Assembly (NCBI GenBank): GCA_018660835.1
Contig: JABJJN010000008.1
Span: forward strand, 1 to 46,976
Origin: Gemmatimonadota bacterium
Lineage (GTDB): Bacteria > Latescibacterota > UBA2968 > UBA8231
Direction: 5' to 3'
DNA: 46,976 nucleotides
In this document: positions 20,905 to 32,940 of the stretch, one piece after another
How positions within the stretch are numbered: position 1 is the first letter of the stretch
Layout of the letters: each line of letters opens with the position of its first letter
Notes under the pieces: generated by a model
Told to the model about the DNA's origin: nothing
Seen by the model: the letters and a program-made list of their open reading frames with translations, nothing else
Database searches by the model: none
Position numbers and translations under genes: made by a program

Positions 20905-21633
20905 ATGAGCGATACAACGATCACTGACGAGAAACTCTGGCATCTGCAGCACTGTCCCTTGTTTTCCGGTATCAGCAAACAAGAGATGGAGCACCTGCGG
21001 GACGTGACTGTCATGGTGAAGCTGGAGCCGGAAGATCTCATTCTGTCGGATCCGGATGATCCGAATGCCATCTGGTTTATCAAGGAAGGACTGATGTCGC
21101 TCACCTACGGTGATGCAGAAGGCAAGGATGCCACTGTGCTATTGCTCGGGCCCGGAGACCTGTTTGGCGCCATGGAGGGAGCGCAGACCCTCGACTACAG
21201 CCAAAGCCTCGTCGCCCTGAAATCCACGGTCCTTTGCCGCATGACGCAGCAGCAGATGGAAGCCCTGCTGAACAATCATCCTGACATTGGCTACCGAATC
21301 ACCAAATTCTCATGGCGCCGTATCGCCAGACTGCAGCAGCGCCTCGCCGAGATCATGACCAAACCGGTGCGCGTGCGCCTGGCGACACTGCTGCTCAACC
21401 TCGCAGATGAATACGGCGAGGACCTACCCACTGGCGGACGATCCCTTGGCCTGACGATCACCCACGATGACTTGGCGAGACTTGTCGGATCGAGTCGCGA
21501 GATGGTGAGCAAGGTCATGGGCACCTTCCGCGATGAGGGCCTCCTACAGGCGGGTCGCAAGCAGATTGACCTGGTGGACCGAGACGGGTTGGCGACCCTC
21601 GCCGAAGGCCGCGACGCGGCAGAAGTCGTATGA
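20905..21633 (+). CDS. Crp/Fnr-family transcription regulator (first gene of egt/transport operon)
   Basis: Regulator of 242 aa with an N-terminal cyclic-nucleotide-type beta-roll (LFSGISKQEMEHLRDVTVMV to VALKSTVLCRMTQQQMEALL) and a C-terminal winged helix whose recognition part is LTITHDDLARLVGSSREMVSKVMG. Only two Cys are present in the sensor half, so it lacks the four-Cys Fnr iron-sulfur site; a small molecule, nucleotide or redox thiol pair could be sensed. It is three bases from the next ABC ATPase gene and heads the operon ending in egtD, so it probably controls this operon. GTGACTTCAC (20842-20851) upstream is a short palindrome. Confidence 0.88.
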   Translation: MSDTTITDEKLWHLQHCPLFSGISKQEMEHLRDVTVMVKLEPEDLILSDPDDPNAIWFIKEGLMSLTYGDAEGKDATVLLLGPGDLFGAMEGAQTLDYSQSLVALKSTVLCRMTQQQMEALLNNHPDIGYRITKFSWRRIARLQQRLAEIMTKPVRVRLATLLLNLADEYGEDLPTGGRSLGLTITHDDLARLVGSSREMVSKVMGTFRDEGLLQAGRKQIDLVDRDGLATLAEGRDAAEVV

Positions 21634-21636
21634 ACC

Positions 21637-22386
21637 ATGCTTGAACTGAGGGGCGTAGCAAAACACTTCGGCGACACCATCGCTCTCCAGCCGACGGACC
21701 TGATCGCTGCATCGGGAAGCACGATGGTCTTGATCGGCCCGTCCGGATGTGGCAAGTCGACCCTCCTGCGCTTGATGCTGGGATTGATTCAGCCTGACGC
21801 GGGATCCGTCGCCATCGACGGCACCATCCTGGCCGAGCAGAATCTCGACACGCTGCGCCATCGTATTGGTTATGTCATTCAGGATGGTGGCCTGTTCCCG
21901 CATTTGCGCGCCGGCGAAAATGTCAGCCTTCTCGCTCGCCACCTCGACTGGACGCCAGACCGAATTCACACACGACTGCGAGAACTGGCCGAACTCACCC
22001 ACTTCCCCGTGGACGCCCTCGACCGCTATCCGGCTCAGCTCTCAGGTGGTCAGAGGCAACGTGTGGGGCTGATGCGTGCCCTCATGCTCGAACCTGACTT
22101 GCTCTTGCTCGACGAACCACTCGGCGCACTGGACCCCATTGTCAGATCCGACCTGCAGAATGATCTGCGCGACATCTTCCGTGGCCTCGGGAAAACAGTC
22201 GTGATGGTCACCCACGATATGGGCGAGGCAGGGTTTTTCGGCGACCAGATCGCCCTGATGCGTGAGGGGCGGATTGTCCAACAGGGTACGTTGACCGATC
22301 TGCTGACGAAACCAGCAGAGGAATTCGTCGAGCGATTCATCAACGCCCAGAGAACGACCCTGCACGTCTTGGGCGGGACAAGCTGA
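21637..22386 (+). CDS. ABC transporter ATPase, OpuCA/EgtV-like
   Basis: ATP-binding subunit of 249 aa. Walker A is GPSGCGKST, the Q-loop is YVIQDGGLFPHL, the signature is LSGGQRQRVGLMRAL, Walker B is LLLLDEP, and the switch His is in VMVTHDMGEA. The YVIQDGGLFPH form is that of the glycine-betaine/choline/ergothioneine importers (OpuC, OsmV, EgtV). No C-terminal CBS domains are present. Its stop and the next start share a base (TGATG), so it is translationally coupled to its permease partner. Confidence 0.9.
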   Translation: MLELRGVAKHFGDTIALQPTDLIAASGSTMVLIGPSGCGKSTLLRLMLGLIQPDAGSVAIDGTILAEQNLDTLRHRIGYVIQDGGLFPHLRAGENVSLLARHLDWTPDRIHTRLRELAELTHFPVDALDRYPAQLSGGQRQRVGLMRALMLEPDLLLLDEPLGALDPIVRSDLQNDLRDIFRGLGKTVVMVTHDMGEAGFFGDQIALMREGRIVQQGTLTDLLTKPAEEFVERFINAQRTTLHVLGGTS

Positions 22387-23879
22387 TGCGGCCCTGGCGC
22401 ACCATCCTCACTGCCCTGCTCCTGTGCACACCCGCCATAGCAGAAGACCCCGTCCTGCACGTTGGTTCGAAATCCTTCACGGAGAGTGTCATTCTCGGTG
22501 ACATGCTGCAGCAATTGGCACAGACCAGGGGCTACGAGACCGAGCATGAACGAGAACTGGGCGGGACACGAATCCTGTGGAACTCTCTGCTCGCTGGTGA
22601 GCTTGATGCCTATGTGGAATACACGGGCACCATCGCCCAGGAAATTCTCGGCAACGAGGGCATGATCGATGAAGCCGCGATGCGGGCGCGCGTAGAAGAA
22701 CATGGACTACGCATGACACGCCCTCTCGGTTTCAACAATACCTATGCCATCGGTGTCACTAGCCATGTGGCAGAACGTCGAGGACTGGAGACGATTTCTG
22801 ACCTCGTCGCCCATCCGGAACTCGTGCTCGGCTTCAGCAACGAGTTCATGGATCGAGGTGATGGTTGGCCCGGTCTGCGCATGCACTACCAGCTACCACA
22901 CCAGGACGTGAGTGGCCTCGAGCACGCGCTTGCCTATCGCGCCCTGGAAGCGGGACAACTCGACGCGACCGATTTCTACTCAACCGATGCAGAAATCGAC
23001 TTTTATGGGTTTGTCGCCCTCAGAGACGATCGCGAGTATTTCCCCACCTATCACGCCGTCATCCTGTATCGCGCTGATCTTGAAGAGCGTGCACCCCATC
23101 TCGCGGCAGCCTTTCACAGCCTCGAAAACCGCATCGATGCCGTCTCCATGGCGAAGATGAACAAGCGTGCGAAGATCGATCGCGTCCACGAACAGCAGGT
23201 TGCTGCCGACTTTCTCGCCGAGACCTTCGGCACGATCGCCGAACTCGAGATACTGAATCGACCTCAGAGACTGTGGAAGACGACGATCGAGCACCTGACT
23301 CTCGTCGGCCTCTCACTTTTGGCAGCGATCCTGGTCGCCGTGCCCCTGGGGATTGTCTCAGCCCGATATCGGCAACTCGGCCAGGCCGTGCTGGGCCTCA
23401 GCGGCATTATCCAAACGATTCCCGCCTTTGCCTTGCTCGCCTTTATGATCCCTCTCGTGGGACTGGGCGGACCGTCGGCCATCTGCGCACTCTTCCTGTA
23501 TTCTCTGCTCCCCATCGTCCGCAATACCTACACGGGGCTGACGGACACCCCCTTGCATCTGCGCGAATCTGCGGCGGCACTCGGATTGCCATCTGGCAAG
23601 CGTCTACGCTGGATTGAACTTCCCATGGCATCGCGGTCGATCCTGGCAGGAATCAAGACATCTGCCGTGATCAATGTGGGGTTTGCCACACTCGGCGCCT
23701 TTGTTGGCGCAGGTGGGTTCGGTCAACCGATCCTGACCGGCATCCGCCTCGCCGATACGGCTCTGATTCTCGAGGGAGCCATCCCTGCTGCCTTGCTTGC
23801 CTTGTTAGTCCAGTGGCTCTTTGAGTTGTCAGAGAGAATCCTTGTACCTGCTGGCCTGCGACTACAGCCAACAGACTAA
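22386..23879 (+). CDS. Fused solute-binding protein/permease, OpuC/EgtU-like
   Basis: Protein of 497 aa. After a signal sequence (MRPWRTILTALLLCTPAIA), residues 22-295 are an OpuAC/YehZ-type binding domain with VGSKSFTESVILGDMLQQL, GGTRILWNSLLAGELDAYVE and YTGTIAQEILG. Residues 300-490 form a permease of about six helices with the EAA-type loop ESAAALGLPSGKRLRWIELP and GAGGFGQPILTGIRL. The order is binding domain first, the reverse of the known EgtU/OpuB fusions as far as I recall. Co-operonic location with egtD suggests import of ergothioneine, selenoneine, hercynine or a betaine precursor; the substrate is inferred, not shown. Confidence 0.87.
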   Translation: MRPWRTILTALLLCTPAIAEDPVLHVGSKSFTESVILGDMLQQLAQTRGYETEHERELGGTRILWNSLLAGELDAYVEYTGTIAQEILGNEGMIDEAAMRARVEEHGLRMTRPLGFNNTYAIGVTSHVAERRGLETISDLVAHPELVLGFSNEFMDRGDGWPGLRMHYQLPHQDVSGLEHALAYRALEAGQLDATDFYSTDAEIDFYGFVALRDDREYFPTYHAVILYRADLEERAPHLAAAFHSLENRIDAVSMAKMNKRAKIDRVHEQQVAADFLAETFGTIAELEILNRPQRLWKTTIEHLTLVGLSLLAAILVAVPLGIVSARYRQLGQAVLGLSGIIQTIPAFALLAFMIPLVGLGGPSAICALFLYSLLPIVRNTYTGLTDTPLHLRESAAALGLPSGKRLRWIELPMASRSILAGIKTSAVINVGFATLGAFVGAGGFGQPILTGIRLADTALILEGAIPAALLALLVQWLFELSERILVPAGLRLQPTD

Positions 23880-23903
23880 CTACGCACGCGACTGGAGGCC
23901 TCG

Positions 23904-24917
23904 ATCACGCAGTTCCAGCCACTTTCTACACATGGCACGCCCCGGGGCCTGACCCTGGTCGGATCTACACAGCAAAGTGCCAAGACTGACCTCGCCGCCG
24001 ATGTACGCGAAGGTCTTACAAACACACAAAAGTGGCTGCCGTGCCTCTATTTTTATGACGAAGTGGGCTCGCAACTGTTCGAGCAGATCTGCGAGCTGCC
24101 GGAATACTACCCGACCCGCACAGAGGCGGCGATCCTGGCAAGCTGCGCTGACGATCTGGTTGCACACCTTCAGCATCACGTGGATCTCGTCGAACTTGGC
24201 TCAGGGAGTGCGACCAAGACACGCCTCGTGCTTGAAGCACTGCTAAGACGCCACGAACAGCTGCGTTTTATCCCCGTCGACATCTCTCGTTCGATCCTCG
24301 AAGAGAGCTCAAGGGCCCTGGTCGGCGATTACGATCAGCTGGAAGTCTATGCCGTCGCCGGAGAGTATCATGATGGACTGGATTTCCTCAAAGAGCAGGG
24401 CGGGCCACCCCGGCTGATTCTGTGGCTGGGCTCAAATGTGGGGAATTTTCAACGCGATGATGCCGTCCATTTCTTGCAGCGACTACATACGACGATGCGA
24501 CCAGACGATCGCTTCCTGATTGGCATCGACCTGCGAAAGGACGCAGCCATCCTCGAGTCAGCCTATGACGACGCGGCGGGAGTCACTGCTGCCTTCAACA
24601 AGAATCTGCTGACACGTATCAATCGCGAACTCGGGGCAGACTTCGATCTGGACGCCTTCTCTCATGAGGCTCGGTGGAACCAGGATGCGGGAAGAGTGGA
24701 AATGCATCTGGTCAGCGAGATCGCTCAATCCGTTCACATCGCTGCAATCGACCTAATGGTCGAGTTCGAAGGCAGTGAGAGCATTCATACAGAAAACTCG
24801 TACAAATACTCGCCGGACGAGATTCAGGCCCTGGCCACCTCGAGTCACTTCGGCATGGAGTGCCAGTGGTTCGACGAAGCCCGCCGCTTTTCCGTCAATC
24901 TCTGGCACCCGAAGTAA
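23904..24917 (+). CDS. egtD: L-histidine N-alpha-methyltransferase EgtD (apparent ATC start)
   Basis: SAM-dependent enzyme that trimethylates histidine to hercynine, the imidazole partner needed for ergothioneine or selenoneine. An apparent GTG start at 24063 lies inside the conserved N-terminus: the same frame upstream reads ADVREGLTNTQKWLPCLYFY then DEVGSQLFEQICELPEYYPT, the standard EgtD text. From the stop of the permease gene (23879) to 24063 the frame has no ATG, GTG or TTG. The best initiation signal is GGAGG at 23894-23898, five bases before ATC 23904, giving 337 aa. Other motifs are LVELGSGSATKTRLVL, LILWLGSNVGNF and MHLVSE. Exact start is uncertain (CTG 23892 or 23949 are alternatives); family assignment is secure. 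Confidence 0.9.
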   Translation: MTQFQPLSTHGTPRGLTLVGSTQQSAKTDLAADVREGLTNTQKWLPCLYFYDEVGSQLFEQICELPEYYPTRTEAAILASCADDLVAHLQHHVDLVELGSGSATKTRLVLEALLRRHEQLRFIPVDISRSILEESSRALVGDYDQLEVYAVAGEYHDGLDFLKEQGGPPRLILWLGSNVGNFQRDDAVHFLQRLHTTMRPDDRFLIGIDLRKDAAILESAYDDAAGVTAAFNKNLLTRINRELGADFDLDAFSHEARWNQDAGRVEMHLVSEIAQSVHIAAIDLMVEFEGSESIHTENSYKYSPDEIQALATSSHFGMECQWFDEARRFSVNLWHPK

Positions 24918-24940
24918 GCCAGGCGCAGCAGTCGTTCCGT

Positions 24941-26437
24941 CTAGTCGTAGGTAAAAACGGTTCCTGGACGGACCCGCAGACGTCTTCGGATGATCTGCGA
25001 AATCGTATCGATTCCCACATTGAGCAATGCCGTCGCGCCGATCAGAAAAACGGCCTTGTCGATCGCGTCTTCTGCGATGGCCGAATCGATGAAGAAACCC
25101 AGCGTCCGAATACCGAGGATGCCGAGAATTGCGGACTCGCGCATCATGACCTCCCATCGGTAGAACAGGAACGCGAGGAATGGCCCATAGACTCGCGGCA
25201 GCACCTCGAATAGATAGCGGTCTGATCGTCGTTGGGGTTGATCGACACGCAGATTCAGCGTGTTGGCGTGCCCGCCCGTGAGGTGACTGAGGATCGCCCC
25301 ATTGTGCAACAGAATTGCGACCACGGCAGGCAGCATCGAAGGGCCCCACAACTGCAACAGAGCGTATGCGAGGATGTATTCCGGTGTCGTGCGCAGGACG
25401 ATGAGACCGTAGTGGGACAGGGCACGCCCAAAACGACCATTGAAGTGACGACAGATGGCGGGGAAGGCAAGCAAGGTAAACACCCCCGTACCGACGAGAG
25501 CAATCTGGGTCAACAGGATGGTGTTCCATGCCCCCGGGACAACCTCCGTCGCCGTCAGGTCCCAGGCCCAACGCCCAATCTCCATCAGATCGAAAACAAC
25601 CTCGCCCGTGCCCGCATAATAACCATCACTGCGCATTGGCCAGGGCAGAATCTCGTATGTAAGGAAACGTCGGACATTGTCCCAGGACAGATGGACATCC
25701 GTCGAGATCAACGCGAAGGAAACAGCGATGTAGATCGGTACGAGCCGCGGTCGTACCCACCAGCGCAGAGAGGCGATCAGCAGATAAAATGCATAGAGCA
25801 GAGCAGGCGCTTCTGCGTAGAGTCCCTCGCGAAAGGCCGTCTCCAGATGAAAACCCAGCGTCGGCAGGCCGATGAAGCCGAGGATGGCACTGGAACGCAG
25901 TGCACACTCGAGTCGGTAGGAGGTGTAGGCGCGCAGATCGGGATAGGCAACGGGGAGAACGCCATAGAAGAAACGACTCAGTTTGCCGCTCGCCGCCGGC
26001 AAACCAGCAAGAGGGCGACGATCAGCTTCCTGCAGGATCTCGGCGTATACCTTGGCGAAGACCCCCGCATAGGGAATGCCGATGGCGAGGATTCCGCAGA
26101 TGGGGGTGAGTCCGACGACAGGCAGGAAGAGGAATGCCCAGAACAGTTCGTGCACTGCGCGCACACATGCGCAAAAGGCACGGACCGTAACTGATTGATT
26201 GAACACAGCCGCCAACAGGCTGCCACCGGCAACACCCAGTGCCAGACCGCAGAAGGCAAAGGTGATCGTATTCACGAGCGCGTCGCCTACACGGGACAGG
26301 GCCGACACGTCTGGCGTAAGAAACCCCCAGCCGATTCGACCCAACTCCCCCCATGGCTCGAGGGTGCTGATCTCCAGATCGGCACCGACGAGACATAGTA
26401 CTGCGACGCCGACGAAACCAAGACTCGTGCGCAGCAC
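24941..26437 (-). CDS. Tandem-fused PhnE-type ABC permease (predicted selenium oxyanion importer)
   Basis: Inner-membrane protein of 498 aa starting at GTG 26437, seven bases after the stop of the ATPase gene. It holds two homologous permease halves: the first ends with VLPVAYPDLRAYTSYRLECA and RSSAILGFIGLPTLGFHLET, the second with VLPRVYGPFLAFLFYRWEVM and RESAILGILGIRTLGFFIDS. These are the ATPase-contact loops of PhnE-type phosphonate permeases. Fusion makes one chain supply both halves of the channel. It is the last gene of the selD-binding protein-ATPase-permease operon, supporting a role in uptake of selenate/selenite. It ends 24 bases from the convergent egtD stop. Confidence 0.88.
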   Translation of the reverse strand: MLRTSLGFVGVAVLCLVGADLEISTLEPWGELGRIGWGFLTPDVSALSRVGDALVNTITFAFCGLALGVAGGSLLAAVFNQSVTVRAFCACVRAVHELFWAFLFLPVVGLTPICGILAIGIPYAGVFAKVYAEILQEADRRPLAGLPAASGKLSRFFYGVLPVAYPDLRAYTSYRLECALRSSAILGFIGLPTLGFHLETAFREGLYAEAPALLYAFYLLIASLRWWVRPRLVPIYIAVSFALISTDVHLSWDNVRRFLTYEILPWPMRSDGYYAGTGEVVFDLMEIGRWAWDLTATEVVPGAWNTILLTQIALVGTGVFTLLAFPAICRHFNGRFGRALSHYGLIVLRTTPEYILAYALLQLWGPSMLPAVVAILLHNGAILSHLTGGHANTLNLRVDQPQRRSDRYLFEVLPRVYGPFLAFLFYRWEVMMRESAILGILGIRTLGFFIDSAIAEDAIDKAVFLIGATALLNVGIDTISQIIRRRLRVRPGTVFTYD

Positions 26438-26444
26438 CTGTTAC

Positions 26445-27131
26445 CTAGCCTTCAGCGCGGTAGAGGTGCCCGAGAGTCTCCGGATCGACTTGCTCAGCGG
26501 GAAGATCGAAGACGATCTGCCCGTCGCGAAGGGCGATGGCTCGAGGAAAGTGCTCGAGTGCCAACTGCACATCATGCATGGCAAGCACAACCGTCGACGC
26601 ACTTTGCTTGATCAACTCAAGTACACGTCCTGCCTGATGCGGATCGATGGCAGAGACAGGCTCATCTCCCAGCAGGATCTGGCTATCTCGGAAAACAGCG
26701 CGCCCCACGGCGACGCGCTGCTGCTGACCACCCGACAAGGACTGCACACGGTCGTGTGCCTTGTCCGCCAGATCCAGGGCCTCGAGAATCGGCTGCACAG
26801 CCGCTACATCTGCCGGATGGGGACGCAGCAAGGTCCGCAGATTCTGCCATGATGTGTGACTGTCGAGCCGACCCGCATAGATGTTGTGAAAAGTGGACAA
26901 CTGCGGCACCAGGGCATAGTCCTGGTGGATCAGGGCGCTGTCGCGGCTGCTCAGCTCCTGCAGATGCCGCAGCAGCGTCGACTTCCCCGCGCCACTGGGC
27001 CCGATGAGGACAACCTTCTCCCCCATCTCGATCCGCAGACAGATACCCTGAAGCGCCGTGACTCCTTGGTACGCAATGCTCAGATCCTGCAGATCAAAGG
27101 CGTTCGTGGCTACGTCGACGGGGGCCCCCAT
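26445..27131 (-). CDS. PhnC-type ABC transporter ATPase
   Basis: ATPase of 228 aa that powers the permease encoded downstream. Walker A is GPSGAGKST, the Q-loop region is IHQDYALVPQLSTFHNIYAG, the signature is LSGGQQQRVAVGRAV, Walker B is ILLGDEP with VSAIDP, and the switch His is in VLAMHDVQLAL. The Walker B reads LLGDEP rather than LLLDEP, as seen in phosphonate-type (PhnC) ATPases. It lies 17 bases after the binding-protein gene. Confidence 0.9.
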   Translation of the reverse strand: MGAPVDVATNAFDLQDLSIAYQGVTALQGICLRIEMGEKVVLIGPSGAGKSTLLRHLQELSSRDSALIHQDYALVPQLSTFHNIYAGRLDSHTSWQNLRTLLRPHPADVAAVQPILEALDLADKAHDRVQSLSGGQQQRVAVGRAVFRDSQILLGDEPVSAIDPHQAGRVLELIKQSASTVVLAMHDVQLALEHFPRAIALRDGQIVFDLPAEQVDPETLGHLYRAEG

Positions 27132-27148
27132 GGCTTTACGAGTCGGCC

Positions 27149-28027
27149 CTACTTGCGTAAGACGCCGATCTCCTGGCCGGTTTTGAGAATGGGCGCATAC
27201 ATGCTGTTGTCCGCGGCGATGAAGCGAGACCGTGGAAAGGCATCGAGGAGAGCGCGATCTTCGATATTGATCAGGGCCTGCTGAATGCGGTCAGCGAAGC
27301 CCTCACCATACACCACGTCGACATCGCCTCGTACCGTCCAGTTATAATCGGGATAGGTCGGTGTGCGCCAGATGATGCTCACCTTGTTTGTATCGACCTT
27401 GCCTGCCGCCAGTTCGTTGTCCCAGACCTTGTAGTTGAGGGCGCCCACCTCATAGGCACCAGACTGTACAAGTGCCAGGGTTTTGGAATGATCGCCGCTG
27501 AAGCCGACACGCTTGAAGGATTCATCCGGCGACTTGCCCAGATGCTGACGGATGAAGTATTCCGGCATCAGACGCCCCGAGGTTGAACCTTTCGAGCCAA
27601 AGGTGAAGGTGTGGCCAGCGATCCCGGCAGGAAACGTAGCTCCTGCGTCTATCCCTGTGCTGTGATGAGCGATGAAATAGGTGACGAAGGCGAGGTCATC
27701 TTGCCCCTGGGCAATTGCCTTGGAACCGGGTACCGCCAACCGTGCCTGCACACCGGAGAGCCCACCAAACCATGCCAGCTGCACTTCAGAATTCTTAAAG
27801 GCCGCCACAGATGCCGCGTAAGACTTCACGGGAATGTATTCGACCTGAACACCGAGCTGCTCGGTGAGATATGCGGCGACACCACCAAAACGTTCCTGCA
27901 GTCGTGCCGTGTTCTGATCGGGGATCGCTGTAAAGCGGAAGATCGGCGCCTGCTCCTCGGCGGCGACGCTGGTTACGGTGATCCAGCATATCGTCAGTGC
28001 GAATAATGCTTTCGTGAAGGTGCGCAA
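27149..28027 (-). CDS. PhnD-family solute-binding protein, predicted selenate type
   Basis: Periplasmic binding protein of about 292 aa. The start is set at TTG 28027 because AAGGAG lies eight bases upstream and it gives a clean signal peptide (LRTFTKALFALTICWITVTS, cleavage near VAAEE); the frame is open to 28060. Residues after the signal read FTAIPDQNTARLQERFGGVA, VEYIPVKSYAASVAAFKNSE, AWFGGLSGVQARLAVPGSKA and FTFGSKGSTSGRLMPEYFIR. These match the branch of phosphonate-type binding proteins that is repeatedly found beside selD and named putative selenate-binding. Here it follows selD directly on the same strand, which supports selenium oxyanion uptake. Affinity has to be inferred. Confidence 0.88.
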   Translation of the reverse strand: MRTFTKALFALTICWITVTSVAAEEQAPIFRFTAIPDQNTARLQERFGGVAAYLTEQLGVQVEYIPVKSYAASVAAFKNSEVQLAWFGGLSGVQARLAVPGSKAIAQGQDDLAFVTYFIAHHSTGIDAGATFPAGIAGHTFTFGSKGSTSGRLMPEYFIRQHLGKSPDESFKRVGFSGDHSKTLALVQSGAYEVGALNYKVWDNELAAGKVDTNKVSIIWRTPTYPDYNWTVRGDVDVVYGEGFADRIQQALINIEDRALLDAFPRSRFIAADNSMYAPILKTGQEIGVLRK

Positions 28028-28176
28028 GAGCCTAACTCCTTGTGAAGTGGGCGAACCCATCGCCTTGGATGACTGCTAAATCGGCGTCGACAGACAGATT
28101 CCCGTCGGCTTCAGCCGTATGGTGAATGAGTTTTCTTGTTGATAGCCAGTGAGAATCGAGGTGAGCTGAGCCCTTG

Positions 28177-29232
28177 TTATCTAATCGCCAGAGCTGTGTC
28201 AGCGTCGCGTGGTTCGACAACACCCACCTGGCAGGCTGCAGAGACACCAGCTGCCTTCAAGGCCGCGATGGCCGCCTCGCCTTCGGATGCAGGTAAGGCA
28301 ACGAGAAGACCACCACTGGTCTGCGGATCGACAAGGATTTCCTGCTCGGCCAGGGACAGATCCCGGTCAAAGCGGATCGACGCGTCGATCTGTTCATGAT
28401 TGGCTGCATTGACGCCTGTTGTGACGCCTTTCTGATACATATCCAACGCTTCAGCCATGATGGGAATCGAGCCGAAGTCGATGGCCAGCGTCGCCTTCGA
28501 TCCCTCGGCCATTTCGAAGGCATGCCCTCCAAAACCGAACCCTGTGACATCCGTTGCCGAATGCACATCAAAGCGGGCGAACACTTCGGCCGCCGTCTTG
28601 TTCAGTGTCGTGAGTGTCTCGATGCAAGTGTCCATTGCCTCTGCGGATACCAATTTATTCAGATTTGCATTGAACAGGACACCGCTCCCAATGGGTTTGG
28701 TCATGATCAACACATCTCCCGGCTGTGCTCCGGCGTTGCCCCAGTAACGCTCCGGATGAACGATGCCCGTGACAGACAGGCCGAACTTCGGTTCCTCATC
28801 GTCTGTCGTATGCCCTCCTGCAAGGACCGCCCCGGCTTCTGTGATTTTCTCCAGGGCCCCTTCGACGATCCCAGCCAGCACGTCGGCGCCAAGATCTCTG
28901 CTGGGGAAGCCAATCAGATTCAGGCAAGCCAGTGGCTTGCCACCCATGGCGAATACATCGCTCAGGGCGTTCGCAGCAGCGATCTGACCGAACAGAACCG
29001 GATCGTCAACGGGCGGCGTGATGATATCGGCCGTGAGCACGAGTGCGCGCTCATCGTCGAGTCGATACACAGCCGCATCGTCACTGGTCTCGAATCCAAC
29101 CAGCAGATTCGGGTCGTTCTTCGACGGCAATCGGGACAGCAGCTTGGCGAGTCCGACCGGACTCACTTTCGCCGCTCACCCGCAGGTACGCGCCAGACTC
29201 GTCAGGGTCTTGTCTTTACTGAACAGTGCCAA
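28177..29232 (-). CDS. selD: Selenide, water dikinase SelD/SenC, predicted selenocysteine protein (UGA recoded)
   Basis: Makes selenophosphate from selenide and ATP, the Se donor for SenB and for selenocysteine. The uninterrupted frame begins at GTG 29166 (SPVGLAKLLSRLP...), lacking the catalytic loop. Reading through TGA 29176-29178 adds ALFSKDKTLTSLARTCG-U-AAKVSP, where U sits where E. coli SelD has Cys17 and Lys follows three residues later, as in Cys17/Lys20. The start is probably TTG 29232 (351 aa; E. coli SelD has 347), as an upstream stop lies at 29239-29241. Other motifs: NLLVGFETSDDAAVYRL, ALSDVFAMGGKPLACLNLIG, LAGGHTTDDEEPKFGLSVTG, DVTGFGFGGHAFEMAEG and DPQTSGG. It heads the selenate-type transporter operon and is divergent from senA. 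Confidence 0.92.
29147..29178 (-). promoter_or_regulatory. SECIS-like hairpin with UGA selenocysteine codon in selD
   Basis: Minus-strand RNA: the UGA (29178-29176) is followed by nine bases, then GUGAGUCC (29166-29159), loop GGUC (29158-29155) and GGACUCGC (29154-29147). These arms pair over 8 bp including one G-U. Bacterial SECIS elements lie directly after the UGA in coding sequence and present a G-U in the apical loop to SelB; E. coli fdhF has a GGUC in its loop about 18 bases after UGA, here 17. It would direct insertion of selenocysteine at the SelD catalytic position. Confidence 0.85.
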
Positions 29233-29316
29233 TGGAGCTCACTTGCAGCGAGGAATATTGTCATACAAGAATGCTTCCGGCTGAACGTAATTGTGCCGCG
29301 TCAGATTCGCAATGGA

Positions 29317-29345
29317 TTGAACAGGTCGGGTTACATTCCTATCCT
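29317..29345 (+). promoter_or_regulatory. Candidate sigma-70 promoter for senA
   Basis: TTGAAC (29317-29322) and TATCCT (29340-29345) are separated by exactly 17 bases, and lie 44 bases before the senA ATG, inside the 156-base gap between the divergent selD and senA starts. Each box matches four of six consensus bases. No promoter of similar quality was found for selD in the other direction. Confidence 0.4.
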
Positions 29346-29388
29346 CCGTATCCAGTGCCTCTTGTCCCCAACCTCAGATAGCGCAACC

Positions 29389-30705
29389 ATGGCTCCCGAC
29401 CACCAGATCCTTTCCTTGATGACCATCGACGACCTGATCGGACACGTGGCGGATGCCCGCGCACGTTCACTTGAGCTGATGGGTGACTTGTCTGATGAGC
29501 AACTGCTCGGACCTAAACTCGACTGCGTGAATCCAGGTCGCTGGGAAATTGGTCATCACGCGTGGTTTCAGTCCCAGTGGGTCCTGCGTGCCGCAGCTGG
29601 CCAGGACCGAGTTCGGGAGGACGAGGATGTGCTGTATGACTCGATGGAAATCGACCACAAGACAAGATGGGATCTGCCACTACCAGAGCGCACTGAGACC
29701 TTCGCCTACGTCGCTGAGGTGCTGCAGCGAACTCTGGCCCTGCTGCGTGATAACCCGAGTGACGAGGTCGTCTACCACGCCCTCTATGCGACGCTTCACG
29801 AGGACATGCATACCGAGGCACTCACCTATACGCGCCAGACGCACGGTTGGCCCGCGCCAAATCTTGGCATCCAGATCGATCCCGGGGACGTCGACGGTGG
29901 CGGCCCTCTGCCGGGTGATGTGGAGATACCTGGTGGTACCCTGCAATTAGGTTCATCCGCCAACGCTGCCTTTGTCTTCGACAACGAGAAGTGGGCCCAT
30001 CCAGTTCAGCTGGCTCCCTTCCGTATCGCTCGTGCCGCTGTGACCCAGGCCGAATACGCTGAATTCGTCGATGCCGGAGGCTACGCCGAGGAACGCTATT
30101 GGACGCAAGAGGGCTGGCAATGGTGTCAGTCGCGCCAGGCCCAGCATCCGGTTCACTGGCAGCGTATCGCCAACGGCTGGCAGCGACAGCATTTCGATGC
30201 CTGGTTCGACCTCGAGCCAGATCGACCCGTGATCCACATCAGTTGGTTTGAGGCAGATGCCTACTGCAGGTGGGCCGGGCGGCGCTTGCCAACAGAGGCT
30301 GAATGGGAGGCAGCAGCAGCGACGGAGCCAGATTCCGCCGGCCTGTCACAGCACAAGCGCCCCTATCCATGGGGTAACGAGGCGCCCTCCCCTGCCGTGG
30401 CCAATCTCGACTGGCATACGATGGGCACCGTTGATGTAGGCGCTCTGGGCGCCGGTGACAGTGCCTGGGGTTGTCGACAGATGATCGGCAATGTCTGGGA
30501 ATGGACGTCAACAGATTTCGGCCCCTACCCGGGATTTGAAATGGATCCCTACAAGGACTATTCAGCGCCCTGGTTTCACACACGGAAAGTGATGCGAGGT
30601 GGTTGCTGGGTGACTCGATCTCGCCTGATCCGCACCCAATATCGAAACTTCATGACACCCGACCGTCGCGATATTCTCGCCGGCTTCCGCACCTGCGCCG
30701 CATGA
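29389..30705 (+). CDS. senA: Selenoneine synthase SenA (EgtB-family)
   Basis: Non-haem-iron enzyme of 439 aa that joins hercynine to a selenosugar to make the C-Se bond of selenoneine. ATG 29389 is the true start; the frame is open to 28396 only because it runs antisense through selD. An N-terminal DinB-type helical domain (about residues 8-145) holds the iron-binding His: WEIGHHAWFQSQW and YATLHEDMHTEALTYTRQ with its HxxxH. The C-terminal formylglycine-generating-enzyme-like domain shows PGGTLQLGSS, RLPTEAEWEAA, GNVWEWTSTDFGPYPG and MRGGCWVTRSR. Sequence alone would allow ergothioneine synthase EgtB; the neighbours senB and selD make SenA the better call. Confidence 0.88.
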   Translation: MAPDHQILSLMTIDDLIGHVADARARSLELMGDLSDEQLLGPKLDCVNPGRWEIGHHAWFQSQWVLRAAAGQDRVREDEDVLYDSMEIDHKTRWDLPLPERTETFAYVAEVLQRTLALLRDNPSDEVVYHALYATLHEDMHTEALTYTRQTHGWPAPNLGIQIDPGDVDGGGPLPGDVEIPGGTLQLGSSANAAFVFDNEKWAHPVQLAPFRIARAAVTQAEYAEFVDAGGYAEERYWTQEGWQWCQSRQAQHPVHWQRIANGWQRQHFDAWFDLEPDRPVIHISWFEADAYCRWAGRRLPTEAEWEAAAATEPDSAGLSQHKRPYPWGNEAPSPAVANLDWHTMGTVDVGALGAGDSAWGCRQMIGNVWEWTSTDFGPYPGFEMDPYKDYSAPWFHTRKVMRGGCWVTRSRLIRTQYRNFMTPDRRDILAGFRTCAA

Positions 30706-30835
30706 GGCCGCACTTACGATGTCTAGGGCCGCACTTACACTGTGTGGGACCGCACGTACGCTGTGTGAGACCGCACTTACGCCGTGTGAGACCGCACTTA
30801 CGCTGTGTGAGACCGCACTTACGCTGTGTGAGACC
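30700..30835 (+). repeat. 21-base tandem repeat between senA and senB (about 6.5 copies)
   Basis: Units of exactly 21 bases with core GTGTGAGACCGCACTTAC begin at 30700, 30721, 30742, 30763, 30784 and 30805, and a partial unit (GTGTGAGACC) begins at 30826. The last three full copies are nearly identical, the first two diverged. The first unit covers the stop codon of senA (30703-30705), and the repeat ends 7 bases before the senB start at 30842. Being a multiple of three, it keeps an upstream frame open through TLCETAL-type repeats, but senB homology starts only after it. Confidence 0.92.
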
Positions 30836-30841
30836 AGCCTC

Positions 30842-31789
30842 GTGCGTATCCTGATTGTCACACCTGCCGCGGCACGGTCCCGCAGCGGCAATCGTCTCAC
30901 CGCCATGCGCTGGGCCCGGCTTCTGCGGCGATCGGGCCACCGGGTCACGGTGAGTACCGATTTTGACAGACAACGTGCAGATGTTCTCATCGCCCTGCAT
31001 GCCCGACGCAGCCATCAGGCGATCGTCAAGTGGCGGCGCCAGCGACAGGGTGCACCCATTGTACTCGCCCTCACAGGGACTGATCTGTATGGTGACATTC
31101 ACACCGACGCTGATGCGCAACAGTCCCTGCAGTTGGCGGACCGCTTCATCGTCCTGCAAGAGGCAGGCATAGAGGAGCTGCCCGCTGATCTGAGGGATAA
31201 TGCACGTGTCATCGTTCAATCGGTGCTGCCTGCGAAGGGGACGTATCCGCCGCGAGCCCGGGTTTTCGAGGTCTGCGTTCTCGGCCATTTGCGTGAGGTG
31301 AAAGACCCTTTCCGTACCGCGGAGGCATCTCGCCGTGTGCCCGTGTCGTCTCGGTTGCAGATATCACATGCTGGTCGCGCTCTGTCAGTGGAAATGGAGG
31401 AGCGTGCACGGCAAGAGATGAGCCAGAATCCGCGCTATCGATGGTTGGACGAAATACCGCGGTGGCGCGCCATGCGGTTGCTGGCTCGCAGCCAGGCGAT
31501 GGTGTTAAGCTCTGTCATGGAGGGTGGCGCCAATGTGGTCTGCGAGGCGATCGCCAGCGGTGTGCCGGTGATTTCGTCTCGTATCTCCGGGTCCATCGGC
31601 CTGCTGGGTGCCGACTACCCGGGCTATTTCGAGGTCGGAGACACAACGCAGCTTGCCCTCCTGCTGCAGCGGCTCGAGCAGGACCCCAGATTCCACGATC
31701 AATTGCGGACGTGGATTTCGAACCGCGCCAACATGGTCGATCCCGCCACGGAGCAGGCCCTTCTGCACGCATTGGTGGAAGAATTATAG
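30842..31789 (+). CDS. senB: Selenosugar synthase SenB (glycosyltransferase family)
   Basis: Glycosyltransferase-fold enzyme of 315 aa predicted to attach selenium from selenophosphate to a UDP-sugar. The start GTG 30842 gives VRILIVTPAAARSRSGNRLT, as in SenB relatives; the frame upstream to 30719 encodes only the tandem repeat. Diagnostic stretches are AMRWARLLRRSGHRVTVSTD, ADVLIALHARRSHQAIVKWR, IVLALTGTDLYGDIHTDADA, SLQLADRFIVLQEAGIEELP and VLGHLREVKDPFRTAEASR, with MVLSSVMEGGANVVCEAIAS near the C-terminus, the acceptor-donor E-motif of GT4 proteins. It follows senA by the repeat region on the same strand, forming senAB. Confidence 0.9.
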   Translation: MRILIVTPAAARSRSGNRLTAMRWARLLRRSGHRVTVSTDFDRQRADVLIALHARRSHQAIVKWRRQRQGAPIVLALTGTDLYGDIHTDADAQQSLQLADRFIVLQEAGIEELPADLRDNARVIVQSVLPAKGTYPPRARVFEVCVLGHLREVKDPFRTAEASRRVPVSSRLQISHAGRALSVEMEERARQEMSQNPRYRWLDEIPRWRAMRLLARSQAMVLSSVMEGGANVVCEAIASGVPVISSRISGSIGLLGADYPGYFEVGDTTQLALLLQRLEQDPRFHDQLRTWISNRANMVDPATEQALLHALVEEL

Positions 31790-31878: not shown

Positions 31879-32940
31879 ATGCTCATTATCGATTCGCACC
31901 TCGATCTGGCCTACAACGGACTCGTGTGGAATCGGGATCTCGCCCAATCGATCTCGCAAATGCGCGAGGCCGAGGCGGGGATGGAGCAAAAGGGACGCGG
32001 ATTGAATGTGGTCTCCTTCGACGAACTTCGTCGTGGTGAGATGGGCTTGGTCTTTGTCACGGTCTGTTGTCGCGTCGCATCCCATGGCAAACGTTTCCCA
32101 GGTGTGCGCACCCAGGAAATCGCCTACGCCCACGATCGAGGGCAGCTGGCCTGGTATCGAGTGATGGAGCGCCAGGGCCACCTGCGTCAGATCTGCAGCG
32201 TCAGCGATCTCGATGCGCACCTGCAGGCATGGGAAGCAGATCCCTTGCACTGCCCACTTGGTTATATCCTGACCATGGAAGGTGCTGACGGCATCGTCGA
32301 CGTCGAACAGATACCCGAGTGGTGGAGTGAGGGCCTACGCGTCGCCAGTCTCTGCCACTATGGTGTCAGCTCCTACTCCCACGGTACGCAAGCCCCCGGT
32401 GGCCTCACGTCTAGAGGTGGTGCCCTCCTCAAAGCACTGCAGAGCCAGGGCGTGATGCTGGACCTGAGTCATCTCGCGGAAGCTGCTTTCTGGGAAGTCC
32501 TGGAGATCTTTGGTGGACAAGTGCTGGCAACGCACAATTGCTGCCGCGCTCTATGCGACCATGACCGGCAGTTCGATGATCGTCAGATTCGGGCGATCAT
32601 CGATCGCGGTGGTGTGATCGGTGTGGCCTTTGACGACTGGATGCTCTCGCCTCTGTGGGATCACGAGTCTCAGGACAATACGGGAATCACCCTGGAAACC
32701 GTGGCCGACCACTTCGATCATATCTGCCAGATCGCCGGCAATTGCCAGCACGTCGGGATCGGGTCAGATCTCGATGGTGGCTATGGCAAGGAACAAAGCC
32801 CCGCCGACATGGACACGATTGCCGATCTGCAGCGCCTGGAAGCAATCTTCGCACGACGTGGCTACACCGATCAGGACATCACCAGGATGTTGCACGGCAA
32901 TTGGCTACGCCTGTTGCGCCAACATCTACCGGCGTCCTGA
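31879..32940 (+). CDS. Membrane-dipeptidase family protein (peptidase M19)
   Basis: Zinc dipeptidase of 353 aa, with GGAG about six bases before ATG 31879. The family's metal site is seen in LIIDSHLDLAYNGL (the HxD), LTMEGADGIVDVEQ (Glu ligand), VMLDLSHLAEAAFWEVL and QVLATHNCCRALCDHDRQFD (His ligands), then HVGIGSDLDGGYGKEQSP. No signal peptide or GPI-like tail is visible, so it is probably cytoplasmic and may cut D-amino-acid-containing dipeptides or act as a beta-lactamase-like peptidase. Its stop is two bases from the next start, so it is coupled with the metallophosphoesterase. Confidence 0.91.
   Translation: MLIIDSHLDLAYNGLVWNRDLAQSISQMREAEAGMEQKGRGLNVVSFDELRRGEMGLVFVTVCCRVASHGKRFPGVRTQEIAYAHDRGQLAWYRVMERQGHLRQICSVSDLDAHLQAWEADPLHCPLGYILTMEGADGIVDVEQIPEWWSEGLRVASLCHYGVSSYSHGTQAPGGLTSRGGALLKALQSQGVMLDLSHLAEAAFWEVLEIFGGQVLATHNCCRALCDHDRQFDDRQIRAIIDRGGVIGVAFDDWMLSPLWDHESQDNTGITLETVADHFDHICQIAGNCQHVGIGSDLDGGYGKEQSPADMDTIADLQRLEAIFARRGYTDQDITRMLHGNWLRLLRQHLPAS

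Follow-up and report, generated by a model that had tools for sequence, protein, structure and literature searches.

The senABC pathway of Variovorax paradoxus, the organism in which its chemistry was shown (PMC9814287), is the closest described counterpart of the locus reported here, which lies at positions 20905-31789 of contig JABJJN010000008.1 (assembly GCA_018660835.1) from a Gemmatimonadota bacterium placed by GTDB in the Latescibacterota. The whole stretch analysed, 46,976 nucleotides (nt) long, is called the window. In Variovorax SenB, residues N20, H58, R61, T83, T85, R155, and K158 act in selenophosphate binding or Se-P cleavage, according to the accessible part of PMC10891094. Other parts of the locus resemble the selenoxide synthase OvsA, the EgtU/EgtUV importer of Streptococcus pneumoniae, SelD proteins with a catalytic selenocysteine (Sec) in their N-terminal loop, a known form of this enzyme (PMC13188914, in the part available), and picocyanobacterial PhnD1, which binds phosphite, phosphate, and methylphosphonate, phosphite more tightly than phosphate (PMC10284923, in the part available).

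The locus shares the SenA, SenB, and SelD/SenC families with the Variovorax cluster, and the same chemistry is predicted for them. It differs in that its SelD carries a Sec codon, its selD, senA, and senB genes are split over two divergent units, and EgtD and two ATP-binding cassette (ABC) importers are packed in. On the basis of its gene content, the locus is very probably a selenoneine-making island, predicted to combine selenium oxyanion import, a Sec-type SelD, the succession of SenB and SenA, and hercynine supply by EgtD. Ten genes fill it, listed here with a hairpin and a repeat:

20905..21633, plus strand: Crp/Fnr-family regulator (Pfam HTH_Crp_2 and cNMP_binding), 3 nt before the ABC ATPase
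21637..22386, plus strand: ABC ATPase, EgtV/ProV-like (TIGR01186, 236.8 bits, under the cut-off of 326.6)
22386..23879, plus strand: substrate-binding protein-permease fusion, ProX/EgtU-like (Pfam OpuAC and BPD_transp_1)
23991..24917, plus strand: EgtD, predicted histidine N-methyltransferase making hercynine (TIGR03438, 377.1 bits from 23991)
24941..26437, minus strand: PhnE-like permease with two PhnE-like stretches (TIGR01097, 180.5 bits, under the cut-off of 216.7)
26445..27131, minus strand: PhnC-like ABC ATPase (TIGR02315, 180.2 bits, under the cut-off of 266.1)
27149..28060, minus strand: PhnD-type binding protein, putative selenite binder (TIGR04553, 378.2 bits, cut-off 250)
28177..29232, minus strand: SelD (SenC role), predicted selenoprotein, with Sec from the TGA at 29178-29176
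29125..29185, minus strand: Sec UGA with a hairpin 3' of it resembling a selenocysteine insertion sequence (SECIS), from folding against shuffles
29389..30705, plus strand: SenA, predicted selenoneine synthase (NF041186, 502.8 bits, cut-off 420)
30703..30835, plus strand: 21-bp tandem repeat of 6.3 copies between senA and senB, ending just before the GTG at 30842
30842..31789, plus strand: SenB, predicted selenosugar synthase (TIGR04348, 407.2 bits, cut-off 300)

Genes were assigned with NCBIfam and Pfam profiles, NCBIfam bit scores being read against curated cut-offs. All the genes named in an initial annotation of this DNA were recovered (Crp/Fnr, both ABC importers, EgtD, SelD, the EgtB-family SenA, and SenB), and SenA, SenB, SelD, and EgtD each score above their curated cut-off. 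The Crp/Fnr gene, both ABC ATPases, and both permeases fall below the cut-offs of the NCBIfam models and match at the superfamily level only. The earlier observation of a complete selenoneine gene set is confirmed, and the interpretation attached to it is supported in part. The first plus-strand block holds the regulator, the ABC ATPase (after a 3-nt gap), the fusion protein (1-nt overlap), and EgtD; in the minus-strand block, SelD is followed by the PhnD-type protein, the PhnC-like ATPase, and the PhnE-like permease with gaps of 116, 17, and 7 nt, so that phnDCE does continue from selD, as annotated. SenA and then SenB form the second plus-strand block, with 156 nt between the starts of the divergent senA and selD genes. 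An Rfam scan of the window at gathering cut-offs returned no match, and promoter and terminator scans returned 2 and 7 sites, respectively, where shuffled sequences gave 3.9 and 6.0 on average.

In the pathway that we propose, the PhnD-type transporter encoded after selD would take up selenite, and cellular reduction of selenite to selenide is assumed. Judging from family membership, SelD would then make selenophosphate from selenide, SenB would turn selenophosphate into a selenosugar, and SenA would add the selenium to hercynine from the predicted EgtD, giving selenoneine. The ProX/EgtU-like importer may serve the uptake of hercynine, selenoneine, or a similar betaine. Such a locus would bring together, in a lineage about which little is known, the selenoneine pathway, hercynine synthesis, and two candidate importers. 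It makes two questions testable, namely, which carrier brings selenium into bacterial cells for use by SelD and what a betaine importer does beside senAB and egtD, and the Sec codon in selD links small-molecule selenium use to selenoprotein synthesis.

Conservation of the locus

Synteny was examined by scanning genome contigs with a SenB alignment, the best 80 of 378 relatives giving 80 senB loci. Linkage was called by bit thresholds (e.g., at least 200 bits for SenA, SelD, and the betaine ATPase), and many contigs are cut. SenA lies beside senB in 49 of the 80 loci, EgtD in 25, SelD in 14, the betaine importer in 10, and the PhnD type in 6; 25 loci have none of the five at these thresholds. 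Where the contig extends 8.5 kb or more in both directions from senB (30 loci), the corresponding counts are 15, 9, 5, 4, and 4. The initial annotation had claimed parts beyond the minimal senABC set and had made conservation of the neighboring transporters a test of its interpretation: the extra parts do recur beside senB in other phyla, and the frequencies of the two transporter types given above support both importers as conserved candidates. One Poribacteria locus (L052) holds every part found in the window except the Crp regulator. Within the phylum of the source genome, senB is patchy, being above the cut-off in 5 of 64 genomes, the source genome included.

SelD is likely a selenoprotein

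SelD scores 343.1 bits on TIGR00476 (cut-off 125), as the initial annotation had recognized, but the in-frame Sec codon had been overlooked. The open reading frame at 28177-29166 is too short and lacks the start region; the frame continues through a TGA at 29176-29178 up to a TTG at 29232. With the TGA read as Sec, it encodes LTSLARTCGUAAKVSPVG, which places the UGA at the catalytic Sec/Cys position. The 61 nt around the TGA fold at -32.3 kcal/mol (z -3.96), a stability reached by none of 200 shuffles, and the hairpin tip AGUCC-GGUC-GGACU, or a form of it with paired or G-U changes, is present in 12 of 16 distinct SelD sequences; those lacking it (L035, L042, L054, and L074) are the more distant ones. 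All 14 SelD proteins of at least 200 bits in reach of senB have TGA at the Sec/Cys codon, as do three further genome rows, two of them duplicates (17/17). The source genome encodes selA (548.2 bits), selB (328.6 bits), and a tRNA-Sec with a UCA anticodon (66.6 bits). As the tRNA-Sec model RF01852 loses specificity close to its cut-off (ARAGORN identifies one match of 47.1 bits in the same genome as a tRNA-Ser), tRNA-Sec was counted only at matches of at least 66 bits.

The UGA at the catalytic codon, the hairpin after it, and the Sec machinery in the genome are the marks of a Sec-type SelD, and the UGA is likely read as selenocysteine. The source genome is a draft (7,086,704 bases in 105 contigs, 93.13% completeness), and a mutation or an assembly error that leaves SelD broken could be imagined. 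We regard this as hardly credible, given the same TGA in every SelD row, the stability of the hairpin, the presence of selA, selB, and tRNA-Sec, and the precedent for Sec at this site. Because of the UGA with its hairpin and the presence of selA, selB, and tRNA-Sec, a single selenium-dependent SelD would be shared by Sec synthesis and selenoneine synthesis; the source genome has one SelD above the cut-off. Without selenium, synthesis of this SelD would remain incomplete, which would halt the pathway. The window protein matches known Sec-type SelD proteins in the Sec codon of the N-terminal loop and the hairpin after it, and would differ from them in serving the selenoneine island besides the selA of the same genome. 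SelU was considered as a further client of SelD in the source genome and rejected (best match 24.6 bits, cut-off 219.75).

SenB and in-frame TGA codons in its relatives

Window SenB aligns end to end with the solved Variovorax SenB (217.9 bits, 3-315). It retains N17, H53, R56, T78, T80, D81, R151, K154, and E227, whose counterparts have been investigated for roles in binding selenophosphate, cleaving Se-P, or choosing the sugar donor (PMC10891094, in the part available); N17, H53, R56, T78, T80, R151, and K154 correspond to the seven Variovorax residues listed at the outset. N17, H53, D81, and K154 are invariant across 100 SenB rows. Window SenB is predicted to make a selenosugar from selenophosphate and a UDP-sugar. 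It has Cys at residue 145 and no in-frame stop, and its start is most likely the GTG at 30842. The 21-bp repeat before it is in frame and stop-free, and SenB could be longer, starting at an upstream ATG at 30719.

The 100 senB rows reduce to 85 distinct ones when those with an identical 300-nt core are counted as duplicates. Ten of these have an in-frame stop, which is TGA in all ten: five at column 145, two at column 130, two at column 4, and one at column 171. Over the 100 rows, column 145 holds Cys in 80, a stop in 9, Ala in 8, Ser in 2, and Thr in 1, and column 4 holds Cys in 37 and a stop in 2. The genes with TGA at column 145, 130, or 4 are L158 (=L026), L159 (=L043), L167 (=L034), L168, L170 (=L052), L108 (=L030), L109 (=L144), L063, and L099. 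The TGA at column 171 (L041) was rejected as a Sec site; it lies outside the Cys columns and probably arose by mutation.

After the five TGA codons at column 145, third positions vary at first, and then CGT CCC GTG AAG GA is fixed in all five. The same codons occur in 2 of the 80 other distinct senB genes (p = 6e-7) and in 2 of 54 when the comparison is made among genes encoding the same RPVKD peptide (p = 4e-6). The frozen stretch is able to form GUCC-CGUGAA-GGAC. The five genes come from one phylum, where senB is above the cut-off in 14 of 84 genomes, and hence are not independent. As 60-nt folds from the TGA in nine senB loci are no better than shuffles (z -0.58 to 1.04), the argument for a hairpin rests on the frozen codons and not on energy. 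A tRNA-Sec of at least 69 bits was found in 9 of 10 TGA-senB genomes (6 of 7, plus G044, G035, and G088), the genome of L063, with TGA at column 4, having none above the cut-off. Because all four tested genomes with a stop-free SenB (G001, G015, G084, and G086) carry tRNA-Sec too, its presence permits Sec in SenB but does not prove it.

Since five TGAs at a Cys column precede a codon-frozen stretch, SenB probably constitutes an undescribed selenoprotein family. The main text of a 2026 review tabulating prokaryotic selenoproteins, as far as accessible, contains neither "SenB" nor "glycosyl" (PMC13188914). Literature searches (selenoneine/selenocysteine/glycosyltransferase; selenoprotein families/SECIS), which did not cover the primary sen and ovoselenol papers, returned no SenB selenoprotein by title. 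On balance, we lean toward the view that such selenoneine islands are built from selenoproteins and are self-gated on selenium, through a Sec-containing SelD and, in about nine related genomes, through SenB too (Sec at Cys145, 4, or 130). If so, SenB would itself contain selenium and form the pathway's first C-Se bond, gene callers would have truncated SenB in these relatives, and Sec/Cys pairs would offer a direct test of the benefit of selenium to a glycosyltransferase.

Alternative products and cargoes

Several observations weigh against a selenoneine-making island. The draft genome has 7.98% contamination, and 31 of the 80 senB loci lack a SenA of at least 200 bits, many of their contigs being cut; the remaining observations concern SenA and the two importers. 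The best solved match of window SenA is OvsA (314.1 bits), ahead of SenA (275.2 bits). In a quick tree of 64 rows, window SenA falls inside an 11-row clade of related SenA proteins (SH-aLRT 99), and the characterized Variovorax SenA lies outside this clade, on the OvsA side, with weak support and long branches; EgtB is also on a long branch. It is conceivable that the enzyme is OvsA-like and yields an ovoselenol-type selenohistidine instead of selenoneine, but we consider this improbable. Window SenA passes the SenA profile, its neighbors are SenB and an EgtD that would make the SenA substrate, and its HxTRWxLPLP and YSAPWFxTRxVxRGxC stretches are nearer those of Variovorax SenA than those of OvsA.

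Ergothioneine, made by the SenA-like protein acting as an EgtB with a sulfur donor, is more improbable still. SenA and EgtB are homologous, and the EgtB model TIGR03440 gives the window protein 335.9 bits. The SenA profile also shows no other full-length EgtB-family gene in the draft genome, where the EgtB profile was not run genome-wide. However, the 335.9 bits miss the EgtB cut-off of 360; the initial annotation had named grouping with EgtB as a refuting outcome, and the protein passes the SenA profile and fails the EgtB one. Its identity to a solved EgtB (36.2%) is lower than to SenA (44.9%) or OvsA (42.5%), and senB and selD adjoin its gene. Selenoneine is retained as the predicted product.

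A second SenA-like gene above the SenA cut-off (483 bits) lies on contig C46 of the source genome (L145:9800-11140), with no SenB match near it, and pairs in the quick tree with a SenB-linked Caldithrix SenA near OvsA. The other 21 matches of the SenA profile in this genome are all at or below 120.1 bits. Another fragment of the source genome (L003, contig C88:142903-143298), like the C-terminal part of EgtB/FGE proteins, has stops around it and looks broken.

The source genome has one EgtD above the cut-off of 290.9, scoring 342.2 bits as an open reading frame and 377.1 bits from 23991. Its frame is open from 23883 and homology begins at 23991, and the first ATG, GTG, or TTG comes only at 24063; either a seldom used start codon or an error of assembly may explain the homology upstream of the usual starts.

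The closest solved relatives of the PhnD-type protein are PhnD1 structures (best 7s6g, 247.7 bits). The TIGR04553 model that it passes is itself graded hypoth_equivalog, and its NCBIfam name, "putative selenate", fits poorly with relatives that bind phosphite and phosphate. Selenite has a trigonal three-oxygen shape. As PhnD1 requires three oxygens in a trigonal array, we infer selenite as the ligand, and not the selenate of the NCBIfam name, and uptake of selenite by this transporter. This requirement is described in PMC10284923, the accessible text of which does not contain "selen". The window protein retains every residue that contacts phosphate directly in PhnD1 (Y44, STS, H156, D203, and Y204), which also counts against a selenium role, as a phosphorus cargo is possible. 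The transporter might import phosphite, phosphate, or phosphonate, the island then being senABC-egtD beside an unrelated phosphorus importer, a reading that fits the ligands of PhnD1 and that we hold to be possible but rather unlikely. Residues beside the STS motif and H156 differ consistently from PhnD1, and the window gene, unlike PhnD1, is in an operon with selD. The PhnD type also accompanies senB in Gemmatimonadetes, Gemmatimonadaceae, Latescibacterota, Poribacteria, Caldithrix, and Deltaproteobacteria, with SelD in four of these six loci. Selenite stays the favored cargo. According to the accessible part of a review (PMC11422209), no transporter specific for selenite has yet been identified in bacteria, and a literature search on PhnD-type transporters and selenium gave nothing relevant by title. 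The PhnE-like permease has no Pfam match.

For the betaine fusion protein, the best solved relatives are EgtUC (131.3 bits) and ProX (130.3 bits). It resembles EgtU in the fusion of binding protein and permease, the aromatic cage, and the carboxylate contacts: K242, T275, T296, Y341, E375, R379, Y419, and Y443 of the EgtU pocket (numbering from the accessible part of PMC9732360) are kept in 11 of 11 proteins, from the window and the ten senB loci with this importer. E375 and R379 do not discriminate between EgtU and ProX because ProX shares both. At positions 244, 293, and 337, the window protein and all ten senB-linked relatives have F, Y, and F, as in ProX, whereas EgtU has G, F, and Y. The pocket thus resembles that of ProX, the last of the observations unfavorable to a selenoneine island. 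The binding domain is N-terminal to the permease, which also differs from EgtU (by the residue numbers in PMC9732360). The initial annotation had called the importer OpuC/EgtU-like; three residues typical of ergothioneine-specific EgtU are missing, and the plain EgtU label was dropped. From the pocket residues, the ligand is likely some trimethylammonium compound. The importer occurs in 10 of the 25 senB loci with EgtD and in none of the other 55 (p = 2e-6, uncorrected for relatedness), namely, in Bryobacteraceae, Acidobacteria, Nitrospinota/Nitrospinae (three), Poribacteria, Planctomycetia, Armatimonadetes, Myxococcales, and one "bacterium".

Regulator and boundaries

Boundaries were searched in 87 stretches, the 80 loci and 7 more, 3 of these from the source genome. 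The Crp/Fnr gene had been taken for a dedicated regulator of the island; this did not hold, as neither it nor the four genes tested to its left have a match of at least 100 bits in these stretches, and it was rejected in this role. On the right, the window and a locus from the same genus (L025) share a metallophosphoesterase, a second Crp, two small open reading frames, and MutL after senB. The window has in addition an M19 dipeptidase gene (31879-32940) that separates senB from the metallophosphoesterase and for which L025 shows no match. The sequence of L025 ends inside the PhnE-like gene, which leaves its left side out of view. The MutL-family gene (PF13941; 35457-37286 in the window) lies a few kb from senB in the window, in L025, and in four Poribacteria loci (L027, L028, L031, and L032).

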